39,289 bases of DNA from Clostridiales bacterium. GTDB lineage: Bacteria > Bacillota > Clostridia > Oscillospirales > CAG-272. Location of the stretch: contig JAEEKG010000078.1 of assembly GCA_016282315.1 (NCBI GenBank), positions 1-39,289 of the forward strand, written 5' to 3'. The notes below the pieces were generated by a model. The model did no database searches and was not told where the DNA came from. It saw only the letters and a list, made by a program, of their open reading frames with translations. Of this stretch, positions 546 through 4,534 are shown piece by piece. The first letter of the stretch is position 1; the number at the start of each line of letters is the position of its first letter. A program made the position numbers and the translations under genes.

Positions 546-1517
546 TCATTGATTCTTTAGCTTCTGCATTCTTATATCTTTTCCTTTAAATAGACACACC
601 GAATAGTTGCCAAGCAACCTGGAAGTAATTCTATCTGAATATCTGTCCAGCATCTCTCCTTGAGTTAAATTGGTGCTTATAATTGTACTTTTCTCAGAAT
701 TGATCCTGGTATTGATAATGCCATACAATGCCGATGAATTGAACTGGCTCTGCATTTCAGCACCCAGATCATCGATTATGAGCAAATCACAATCTTCATA
801 TTTTGCAGAAGGATATTCTCCTTCTGTATTTTTCTGTGCTCTTCCGAATCTCTCATCTTCGTAATCTTTGAACACTTTCTGAGCAGTTTCGTACACCACA
901 TCAAATCCTTTATCTATTACTACTTTTGCTATAGATGTTGACAGGTGTGTTTTACCAAGACCAGTGCCTCCTATGAACAGAAGATTTTTCATTTCATTTT
1001 TAGTAAATGTCTCAGCAAAATCTTTAGATGCTGCATAGATATTTTCTATGTTATTTCTGTCATCGCCAGTGTAGTAACTGAAATCAAAGTTATCAAAATT
1101 CTCTTTCTGTATCAGTTTGTATATCCCTGAAGACTGGTAACCTGCAACTGCAAGTTCCTTTTTCAGACATGAGCACATTTTGCCATCAACATATCCTGTG
1201 TCTTTGCAAATAGGACACTCATATTTCACATCACTATAATCACCTGGATATCCTTTTTCTATAAGAAAAGCTGTTCTTGCTTCGTTTATGGCAGCAACTT
1301 CTTCAAGAATTGAGTTTACTTTTTGCTGAACATTATCTCCAGATGAAGAAGCAGAAATAATTCTTATTGCTGTTTTAGATAATATGGCATCCATTTCAGC
1401 AATCTCGGGGAATTTGTTTCTCAATTCCTGGGCCCTGGCTTCAGCAGCATTTTTGGCTTCAAGATTTTTGCTTTGATATCTCTTCAATACTTCTTCGTAC
1501 TTTTCGTTATAAGCCAT
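546..1517 (-). CDS. dnaI: DnaI/DnaC-type replicative helicase loader (AAA+ ATPase)
   Basis: Loads the replicative helicase onto DNA at initiation or restart. Visible features, counted from the ATG at 1517: a helical N-terminal region (1-95), a zinc-binding cluster CPIC...CSC (C101, C104, C115, C117), Walker A GGTGLGKTH (183-191) and Walker B LLIIDDLGAE (245-254). This order matches DnaI of Bacillota. An ATG at 1523 also exists, but AGGGG lies only one base from it and seven bases from the ATG at 1517, so 1517 is preferred. It directly follows the DnaD-domain gene, as in many Firmicutes, and is closed by a terminator. dnaI is the Bacillus name; clostridial copies are often labelled dnaC. Confidence 0.93.
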   Translation of the reverse strand: MAYNEKYEEVLKRYQSKNLEAKNAAEARAQELRNKFPEIAEMDAILSKTAIRIISASSSGDNVQQKVNSILEEVAAINEARTAFLIEKGYPGDYSDVKYECPICKDTGYVDGKMCSCLKKELAVAGYQSSGIYKLIQKENFDNFDFSYYTGDDRNNIENIYAASKDFAETFTKNEMKNLLFIGGTGLGKTHLSTSIAKVVIDKGFDVVYETAQKVFKDYEDERFGRAQKNTEGEYPSAKYEDCDLLIIDDLGAEMQSQFNSSALYGIINTRINSEKSTIISTNLTQGEMLDRYSDRITSRLLGNYSVCLFKGKDIRMQKLKNQ

Positions 1518-1519
1518 AA

Positions 1520-2464
1520 TCATTCCCCTTTCTTTTCACTTTGTTTCCCACGCTTTGAAGCGAGTTCGAAAAACTCGTCTATATCAAAACTTGAGTTTTC
1601 ATTTTCTTTCTTTTGTTTCTTTTTTGATTTGAATTGTTTTTTGCTCTCTTCAACCTTTTCAGGAGTATCAATTGATTCCCTGTGCCAGTTAGTCAGTATG
1701 GAATTCATATATTTCATACTTGGCGTCGGGATTTTTTCCATCATTTCGTAGTATGCTTTTTCTATTATAATCCTGGATGCAGAATAATCACTGCTCCATG
1801 TTTTTATATACTTAATTTCTGTTGGAGTCAGTGCCCTTTCGCCGAATCCAAATAATTTTCTGACACAATACTCAACATCATTAATCTTACTTTCCTCTTT
1901 AAGGAATGCATCTAAAGTATCAGTGCTGTCTATACCTCTGTCACAAAGCCCAATAGCGGTTTTTTCAACATACCTCAAATTTGTGTGTCCTTTGTTCTTA
2001 CAATAAACACAAAGCATCCATATGTATTCGCTTTCCAATCTCAAATGATCATACAAATAAACAATGACATTACATTCAGAAATTGAAAATGTTTTTTCGA
2101 GTATAACTTGAGCCTGGTCAATAATTCGGTTGAGTTCTTCATTGTCTTTTCTGATTTTTTCTATCTCTTCGCCCGTATATGAGTATGATTCGGGTTCGGG
2201 GGCACTTATTCTGCTTTCTTGTTCTTTTTCAGGTTCTTCGCTTTGTGCTCGGATAATACCTGTGCCTCTCCAAAAACTCAGAGACTCTTTTACAGCAGAA
2301 GAAGACATTCCTATCTTGTTTGCAATTTCAAATTCGTCGGAAGGACCATAAGCAGATAAAGCTATCAAAACTCTTGCATCTTCACCAGTTGCTTTAACTA
2401 AATAATCCTTAACATTTGCTGGCAAAAATATCGCATTATTGCCCAGCACAAACTCATATTTCAA
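1520..2464 (-). CDS. DnaD-domain replication initiation protein
   Basis: DNA-remodelling primosome protein that works with the helicase loader encoded next to it. The first 75 residues look like a winged-helix region. They are followed by an acidic linker (SEEPEKEQE) and two DnaB_2/DnaD-type helical repeats (roughly 115-185 and 195-255), the second ending in the YMNSILTNW form of the Y-x4-I-x2-W motif. The C-terminal tail is a highly charged Lys/Glu stretch. The start codon is TTG at 2464, strongly supported by AAAGGAGG eight bases upstream. The stop is 2 bases before the favoured dnaI start. Whether it is orthologous to Bacillus DnaD or DnaB cannot be settled by eye. Confidence 0.88.
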   Translation of the reverse strand: MKYEFVLGNNAIFLPANVKDYLVKATGEDARVLIALSAYGPSDEFEIANKIGMSSSAVKESLSFWRGTGIIRAQSEEPEKEQESRISAPEPESYSYTGEEIEKIRKDNEELNRIIDQAQVILEKTFSISECNVIVYLYDHLRLESEYIWMLCVYCKNKGHTNLRYVEKTAIGLCDRGIDSTDTLDAFLKEESKINDVEYCVRKLFGFGERALTPTEIKYIKTWSSDYSASRIIIEKAYYEMMEKIPTPSMKYMNSILTNWHRESIDTPEKVEESKKQFKSKKKQKKENENSSFDIDEFFELASKRGKQSEKKGE

Positions 2465-2500
2465 GTTATCTTCCTCCTTTGCTTAATAGTTTTCCAAACC

Positions 2501-2653
2501 TTTTCCACATGTTTTTTGATATTTTATACAAATGTTATTTCCACATTTTCAACAACTTTTTCAACGTTTTTGGCCTAAAACAGGCGTTTTTAGTGGCTTT
2601 TGGGCTGTTTTTGTGGAAAACTCACTCACATTTAGTGGAAAACTTTTTCCACC
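2501..2653. promoter_or_regulatory. Cluster of DnaA-box-like repeats upstream of dnaD-dnaI
   Basis: The 192-base gap between tsaD and dnaD holds repeated TTTTCCACA-like nonamers. Exact copies lie at 2501-2509 (plus) and 2612-2620 (minus). Near copies are TTTTCCACT at 2634-2642 (minus), TTTTCCACC at 2645-2653 (plus), ATTTCCACA at 2537-2545 (plus), TTTTCAACA at 2546-2554 and TTTTCAACG at 2558-2566 (plus). Two of them make a perfect inverted repeat, GTGGAAAA-CT-TTTTCCAC (2635-2652). TTTTCCACA is one base from the canonical DnaA box TTATCCACA and is itself a known box variant. DnaA binding is inferred. Confidence 0.6.
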
Positions 2654-2656
2654 CAA

Positions 2657-3670
2657 TTATTCCTCAAATCTGGATGCTTCCGCATTTAAATTCAATTCTG
2701 CTTTTTCTCCCGACAAGTATTCAAAGTAACCGGCTGCTGCTATCATAGCACCATTATCTCCGCAGTACTTTAACTCGGGCATAAACAGTTTTAATTTATG
2801 TTTTTTACTGAATTCAACAAGTGCATTTCTCAAATGAGAATTGGCTGCCACACCACCTGCCAAAGCAATTGTTTTTATATTCGGATATCTCTTAAATGCT
2901 TCGCCGAGTTTTACAATAACAGATTCTACAGCTGCTTTTGTAAATCCAGCTGCGATGTCTGCTTTATTGAATTCTTCACCCTTTTGATTTGATGAGTTAA
3001 TATAGTTCAAAGCAGCTGTCTTTATACCTGAAAATGAGAAATCCAATGTATCGTCTTTGATTGCAGCTGATGGAAACTTAACGGGATTTTTACCCTCATA
3101 ACTGAGTTTGTCCATTGCCGCTCCGCCTGGATAAGGCATTCCCATAACCCTTGCTATTTTATCAAAGGCTTCCCCCATCGCGTCATCTCTTGTTCCGCCA
3201 ATGACTGTGTGTTTTCTATAATCTTCAACAAGGATGATTGAAGTGTGTCCGCCTGAAGCAACAAAAGCTATAAACGGGGGTCTTAAATCATTTGTCAGAT
3301 AATTTGATGCTATGTGACCTTTGATATGGTCTACAGCATATAAGGGCAAGTTGTTTTGATAAGCAAACCCTTTTGCAAAATTCACTCCAACTAATAATGC
3401 ACCAATTAATCCGGGGAAGGCTGTAACTGCAACCGCATCCAATTCTTTAGGGTTAACACTTGCATTATTGAGCGCTGTTTTTACCAGATTTGTAATTGTT
3501 TCACAGTGTGCTCTGCTGGCAATTTCAGGAACTACTCCTCCGTATCTGGCATGTACCTGTATCTGAGAAGCTACTTCATTGGATAATATTTTAAAGTCAC
3601 GCTCGCCGCTGCATTCCAATACTGCAACGGCTGTTTCATCACATGAGCTCTCAATTCCAAGTATCCTCAT
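2657..3670 (-). CDS. tsaD: tRNA N6-adenosine threonylcarbamoyltransferase
   Basis: Transfers the threonylcarbamoyl group to A37 of ANN-decoding tRNAs (t6A). The protein is 337 residues, normal for the family. It shows the Kae1/TsaD ASKHA fold: GIESSCDET at the N-terminus, the metal-binding HIKGH motif (H115, H119), ASGGHT (138-143), AGGVAAN, and a C-terminal CGDNGAMIA carrying the third metal ligand. The ATG at 3670 has GGAG six bases upstream and lies 3 bases beyond the stop of the phosphatase-RimI fusion, so the two are coupled. The usual partners tsaB, tsaE and tsaC are not in the window. Confidence 0.97.
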   Translation of the reverse strand: MRILGIESSCDETAVAVLECSGERDFKILSNEVASQIQVHARYGGVVPEIASRAHCETITNLVKTALNNASVNPKELDAVAVTAFPGLIGALLVGVNFAKGFAYQNNLPLYAVDHIKGHIASNYLTNDLRPPFIAFVASGGHTSIILVEDYRKHTVIGGTRDDAMGEAFDKIARVMGMPYPGGAAMDKLSYEGKNPVKFPSAAIKDDTLDFSFSGIKTAALNYINSSNQKGEEFNKADIAAGFTKAAVESVIVKLGEAFKRYPNIKTIALAGGVAANSHLRNALVEFSKKHKLKLFMPELKYCGDNGAMIAAAGYFEYLSGEKAELNLNAEASRFEE

Positions 3671-3673
3671 TTT

Positions 3674-4534
3674 TCACTCCACCAAATCAAGTTTGTACAC
3701 CACTGCATCATCTACAGGAGTATCGTAATAATCCTTTCTCAATCCAATCACTGAAAAACCTATTTTTTCATACATAGCTCGTGCGGCCACATTGTTCTTT
3801 CTGGCTTCCAGGAATATGGTTTTTATTCCATCATTTCTGCAGTCTGAAATCATTTTATTCATCAATTCTTGCCCAAGGCCATGTCTTCTGTATTCAGGTC
3901 TAACTGCTATAGTCATAACCTCAGCTTCATCAAGAACATGTCTGTAATTGAGATAACCGCAAAACACGTTATATGAATATACAGATATTAATCTGCACAA
4001 TTCTCCGCTCTCGTTTGGGATGTCAAAAGGATGTGCGAATGTTTCTTTTTCAAGTTCCCATGCCAAAAGCATAGATTCTTTATCCATTATTTTGTAATCG
4101 ATAGAATCATCTTTTAAAGAAAACAAATTGAACAATTCACTTTTGATTGTATATAGCAATGAGTCTATTTGATCCGTTGTGAAAACATCCGGCAAATCAG
4201 ATGAGAAAGTCCTGTATTTGTCTGAAAACTGAGGGTATTTGTTTTCCAAAATACTCTTGTGACTTTCAGTTGCACAATACACCACATCGCAACTATTCAG
4301 TATTTCTTCATCAATTTGTGTCGATCTGAACGATTGAATGTCCTTTTTAGGATAACCCTTTTGAGAAAGAACTTCCGCCAGATTATTGCTCATTGGAATT
4401 CCAGAAGCAAACAAACCCGCGGAAGAAGCTACGTACTTTGAATAACCAAACCTATCAAGAACGAACTGTGCCATAACCGAACGCATGGTATTTGTTGTGC
4501 AAACAAATACCACCTTTGTTCTGTTATCTGTCAT
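3674..4534 (-). CDS. Fusion: YwlE-like low-molecular-weight phosphatase + RimI-type acetyltransferase
   Basis: Two domains in one 286-residue chain. Residues 6-140 are a low-molecular-weight phosphatase with the P-loop CTTNTMRS (C12 nucleophile, R18) and a DLPDVF loop (113-118) supplying the general acid. Thr at the fourth residue after the catalytic Cys (T16) is the feature that marks YwlE-type protein-arginine phosphatases; tyrosine phosphatases carry a bulkier residue there. Residues 147-286 are a GNAT acetyltransferase of the RimI type, with acetyl-CoA loop RRHGLGQ (216-222) and a conserved NNVAARAMYEKIGF segment. RimI acetylates the N-terminus of ribosomal protein S18 and is commonly encoded beside tsaD. 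The gene overlaps the end of mrp by 11 bases and lacks a strong ribosome binding site, so translation is probably coupled. Confidence 0.85.
   Translation of the reverse strand: MTDNRTKVVFVCTTNTMRSVMAQFVLDRFGYSKYVASSAGLFASGIPMSNNLAEVLSQKGYPKKDIQSFRSTQIDEEILNSCDVVYCATESHKSILENKYPQFSDKYRTFSSDLPDVFTTDQIDSLLYTIKSELFNLFSLKDDSIDYKIMDKESMLLAWELEKETFAHPFDIPNESGELCRLISVYSYNVFCGYLNYRHVLDEAEVMTIAVRPEYRRHGLGQELMNKMISDCRNDGIKTIFLEARKNNVAARAMYEKIGFSVIGLRKDYYDTPVDDAVVYKLDLVE

Follow-up and report, generated by a model that had tools for sequence, protein, structure and literature searches.

The 192-bp gap between tsaD (gcp) and dnaD on the 39,289-nt contig JAEEKG010000078.1 of a Clostridiales bacterium (hereafter the window) is the densest cluster of DnaA boxes in the 448 kb of this genome that were examined. 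The gap (2465-2656) holds the whole cluster. It lies downstream of tsaD (2657-3670, minus strand; PF00814) and upstream of dnaD (1520-2464, minus strand; PF07261, E-value 1e-28; TTG start), which is followed by a gene for a DnaI-type helicase loader (IstB/AAA+ ATPase; 546-1523, minus strand). Within the gap, three boxes form a triplet of fixed spacing and orientation that recurs downstream of tsaD in many relatives. We consider that the cluster is probably an ancient DnaA-box array outside the replication origin (oriC), of the titration type, which here doubles as the dnaD-dnaI operator.

Exact TTTTC[CA]AC octamers occur six times in the gap, alongside two variants, ATTTCCACA (2537) and the weak box TTTTCCAAA (2490-2498, plus strand), together about the number given in the original prediction, which counted seven nonamers of this type. 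As background, 448 kb, about 23% of this genome, were read in sliding 192-bp windows. Six octamers, or nine TTWTNCACA sites with at most one mismatch, were reached in the tsaD-dnaD gap alone. The same gap supplies all counts of four or more among AT-rich windows (GC ≤ 36%, n = 15,711), so that it stands far above the AT-rich DNA of its own genome, the comparison by which the prediction was to be judged. Dinucleotide shuffles of the gap gave means of 0.19 octamers and 1.7 TTWTNCACA sites, and none of 2000 matched the observed counts. Over the whole window the loose motif was not enriched (135 found, 141 expected); the signal of the cluster is therefore local. Above background, then, at least three closely spaced DnaA boxes share one intergenic region. 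Two exact TTTTCCACA boxes face in opposite orientations, at 2501-2509 (plus strand) and 2612-2620 (minus strand, identical in three species), and positions 2635-2652 form a perfect inverted repeat, GTGGAAAA-CT-TTTTCCAC, with 8-bp arms and a 2-nt spacer. Both features had been correctly described, as had the single base that separates TTTTCCACA from the canonical box TTATCCACA; the TTWTNCACA consensus is matched exactly by TTTTCCACA. The arms of the repeat belong to two DnaA-like boxes, TTTTCCACC (2645-2653, plus strand), which is TTTTCCACA in two sister species, and TTTTCCACT (2634-2642, minus strand).

Three features go beyond the original prediction: a fixed triplet, its overlap with a putative promoter, and the tie of the cluster to tsaD rather than to dnaD. 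The triplet, CGTTGAAAA-AGT-TGTTGAAAA-TGTGGAAAT, occupies 2537-2566 on the minus strand. Its boxes, read on the plus strand, are TTTTCAACG (box 1, 2558-2566), TTTTCAACA (box 2, 2546-2554) and ATTTCCACA (box 3, 2537-2545). The general form, TGTKNAWAA-N3-TGTKNAWAA-TGTKNAWAA on the tsaD strand with box starts at 0/12/21, recurs in register downstream of tsaD in relatives, and register and strand are shared across class and phylum. With up to three mismatches it was present in 33 of 89 fetched tsaD loci, whereas reversed-sequence controls never came below four mismatches. Distances between same-strand boxes at tsaD loci peak at 21, 12 and 9. The outer boxes, 21 bp apart, are separated by two helical turns, and some genomes retain just this outer pair.

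Conservation of the gap, which the original prediction had proposed to look for in relatives, extends through the genus and far beyond it. Among the three closest genus members, 67 of 72 columns are identical in the boxes, compared to 56 of 132 elsewhere in the gap (Fisher p = 9e-14). At the level of the class, 150 genomes have a listed tsaD, and in 33 of them the triplet (at most two mismatches) lies on the tsaD strand within 1.5 kb downstream of the gene. Elsewhere the same genomes hold 66 triplet places, a density at which about 0.02 matches downstream of tsaD would be expected. In the phylum sample the triplet lies downstream of tsaD in 29 of 149 genomes from 18 families, always on the same strand and within 0.5 kb, except for one at 1.6 kb. 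No opposite-strand triplet was seen near tsaD in the 150 class and 149 phylum genomes. These prevalences are taken from the full class and phylum lists; a one-per-family sample was also made, but it was not drawn blind to triplet matches. The sequence comparisons thus indicate that the tsaD-downstream triplet is an old element of many Clostridia and related classes.

The boxes of the gap are of the type used at the origin. Since the assembly yielded no dnaA, oriC boxes were read in relatives, and there the predicted agreement in box type was found. The dnaA-dnaN gaps of the genus and family carry TTTTCCACA and TTTTCAACA; often the two stand head to head, 3 nt apart, and the same pair is present in several tsaD clusters of the family. 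Moreover, whether the variable position of the tsaD triplet boxes holds A or T tracks the choice made at oriC (Spearman 0.82, n = 28 genomes, each with three or more oriC boxes), a relation carried mainly by the difference between one order and the rest. Because box choice at tsaD follows oriC, the data point to DnaA as the common reader of both sets of boxes.

In this genus a promoter for dnaD-dnaI is likely superimposed on the triplet. The genus alignment places a putative -35 element, TTGAAA (2547-2552, minus strand), inside box 2, and a putative -10 element, TATAAA (2523-2528), within AACATTTGTATAAAAT (2521-2536, minus strand). The core of the latter, ACATTTGTATAAAAT, directly follows box 3 and does not vary among the five genus members. 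The spacer between the two elements is 18 nt here and 17 nt in two species, and box 3 lies within it. Transcription would start near 2516, with the exact box at 2501-2509 just downstream, so that boxes straddle the predicted start.

The position of the cluster upstream of dnaD-dnaI, as first described, is correct for this genome. Among 28 genomes with a retrievable dnaD, mostly with tsaD and dnaD apart, 26 dnaD upstream regions are without an exact box, and most of these genomes carry an array after tsaD. Since a separated dnaD usually lacks boxes while tsaD keeps its array, the array is tied to tsaD. The candidate reading that it belongs to dnaD was accordingly rejected for most lineages; it holds in Lachnospiraceae. 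An exact-triplet scan covered 84,980 species, and the following figures come from the 80 loci listed. At least about 15 lie after tsaD, at least 27 adjoin murC, at least five precede mnmE (trmE) and at least three are at dnaA; none of the 80 is from Bacilli. The murC-adjoining triplets among the matches listed are nearly all from Lachnospiraceae, with dnaD-dnaI on the far side (six murC-dnaD loci and about 20 others). In this murC-dnaD gap the triplet and dnaD are on opposite strands. About 170 nt on there is a second array with 9-bp spacing, and after it comes a conserved extended -10 element, TGTGNTAT. In the Lachnospiraceae with a murC-dnaD array, an ispD-like gene comes close behind tsaD, and no array is found there. 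A DnaA array before dnaD therefore occurs in two gene contexts, tsaD-dnaD here and murC-dnaD in Lachnospiraceae. Searches of the open-access literature found no earlier description of DnaA boxes at dnaD in Clostridia.

The original prediction named a Bacillus subtilis cluster beside gcp (tsaD), and rightly so: region 4 of the IDAP-seq study, 'downstream of gcp; downstream of ydiF', is bound by B. subtilis DnaA in vitro at 10 sites, with a Kd of 0.15 µM for ATP-DnaA (PMC4447404). Both clusters consist of oriC-type DnaA boxes directly downstream of tsaD/gcp and away from oriC. However, the B. subtilis cluster is flanked by the 3′ ends of two genes, whereas here same-strand dnaD-dnaI comes next and the putative promoter is inside the cluster. 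The likeness is one of position and box type; the 0/12/21 register was traced in Clostridia and related classes. Deletion of six B. subtilis clusters leads to early initiation, according to the accounts of Okumura 2012 given in PMC5295017 and PMC13220808. B. subtilis also has DnaA-repressed promoters, at trmE-noc, ywlC, ywcI-sacT and vpr (PMC4447404). There, as here, boxes lie at or over a promoter, and mnmE (trmE) triplets occur in Oscillospiraceae as well; the target in the present case is the helicase-loading operon, presumably under repression by DnaA. With the datA and DARS sites of Escherichia coli, which are marked by IHF-dependent ATP hydrolysis or nucleotide exchange on DnaA, the likeness is limited to conserved non-coding DnaA-box arrays outside oriC.

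The most serious alternative is a pure DnaA titration (or nucleotide-state) site, for which the adjacency of dnaD would be incidental and dnaD-dnaI transcription unaffected. It is favoured by the persistence of the array at tsaD when dnaD lies elsewhere and its own upstream region is usually boxless, by the wide variety of genes found downstream of the tsaD array, and by the B. subtilis gcp site with its two converging gene 3′ ends. Against it, the -10-like block conserved throughout the genus keeps an unchanging position right beside box 3, the predicted start has boxes on either side, and comparable arrays precede dnaD in Lachnospiraceae. We judge this alternative unlikely, although it deserves real weight. 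Several observations speak against the combined reading of an old titration array that also became the dnaD-dnaI operator. About 78-80% of the sampled genomes are without a triplet of at most two mismatches at tsaD. The array stays at tsaD where dnaD has moved away, and control of dnaD hence cannot be its original role. A simple consensus promoter scan did not return the putative dnaD-dnaI promoter, which consequently rests on conservation and spacing. No dnaA was found in this 94%-complete assembly, and the covariation of oriC and tsaD boxes is confounded by phylogeny. Taken together, the overlap with the putative promoter argues for helicase-loader control within this genus, and the conservation linked to tsaD for titration as the ancestral role.

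The remaining explanations fare much worse. An operator for some other protein recognising GTGGAAAA-like repeats, for instance MraZ, is favoured by the second triplet of this genome, which lies just upstream of mraZ beside GTGG repeats of about 10 bp. However, the boxes fit TTWTNCACA and are exact TTATCCACA in other lineages, their type tracks oriC, the 12/9 register does not correspond to a 10-bp repeat, and the same element is found at dnaA-dnaN, mnmE and dnaD; such an operator is very improbable. About equally improbable is a feature of the RNA, such as a terminator, attenuator or riboswitch, encoded in the gap. The inverted repeat at 2635-2652 could fold as a short hairpin, but a scan of the gap returned no terminator-like site, there is no Rfam match, and the conserved unit is a set of in-register direct repeats, all on one strand. 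Least probable of all is a functional origin or second half of oriC, even though the box density and the head-to-head pairs resemble family dnaA-dnaN regions. In two family members with both genes on one contig, the GC skew changes sign at dnaA but not at tsaD, no skew switch occurs at tsaD in two complete genomes from other families, and in complete genomes tsaD lies hundreds of kb from dnaA. An origin reading was rejected on the GC skew of these four genomes, in which the tsaD site has neither the skew switch nor the dnaA-dnaN context of oriC. By GC skew and dnaA location in the four relatives, the cluster lies outside oriC.

In the combined reading, the triplet would probably load several DnaA molecules cooperatively and thereby keep the initiator from oriC. 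Its ancestral role would be to lower free DnaA by titration, as is thought for the B. subtilis clusters. In this genus a sigma-A-type dnaD-dnaI promoter appears to have been built on the triplet, with the -35 element in box 2, the -10 element right after box 3 and boxes on both sides. DnaA bound to boxes 2 and 3 would then be expected to exclude RNA polymerase. If so, synthesis of the helicase loader would rise at low free DnaA and fall at high free DnaA. The arrangement points to control by DnaA over the supply of its helicase-loading partners. More tentatively, and with rather less confidence than in the combined reading itself, we raise a wider proposal: the 0/12/21 site may have been kept at tsaD through much of Bacillota as a dedicated initiator-control element and repeatedly wired to helicase-loader supply (tsaD-dnaD, murC-dnaD), matching loader synthesis to free or ATP-bound DnaA.

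What is established in Bacillota about DnaA-box clusters outside oriC comes mainly from B. subtilis, and their purpose there is under debate. An array that keeps its position and spacing across Clostridia and other classes implies that the tsaD site has been under long-term selection and is no Bacillus peculiarity. The merger with the dnaD-dnaI promoter, with its parallel in Lachnospiraceae, would, if true, bring the helicase loader into the DnaA regulon and allow a model of initiation controlled by feedback to be tested directly in cultured species.

Triplets were also seen beside other genes. The second near-perfect triplet of this genome is at 9163-9192 of contig C92, just upstream of mraZ at the start of the division gene cluster, and the adjoining GTGG repeats resemble MraZ sites; a link between DnaA and division is possible. 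In Oscillospiraceae, five loci have exact triplets upstream of mnmE/trmE. At two loci of a single family (f43) the triplet is downstream of a replicative helicase (dnaB-type) gene, and at five further loci triplets stand beside hpf/raiA-like or comF-like genes, as named by eye. Finally, the open reading frame beside tsaD in the window (3674-4534, minus strand) appears, by eye, to encode a low-molecular-weight phosphatase domain fused to a RimI-type acetyltransferase.
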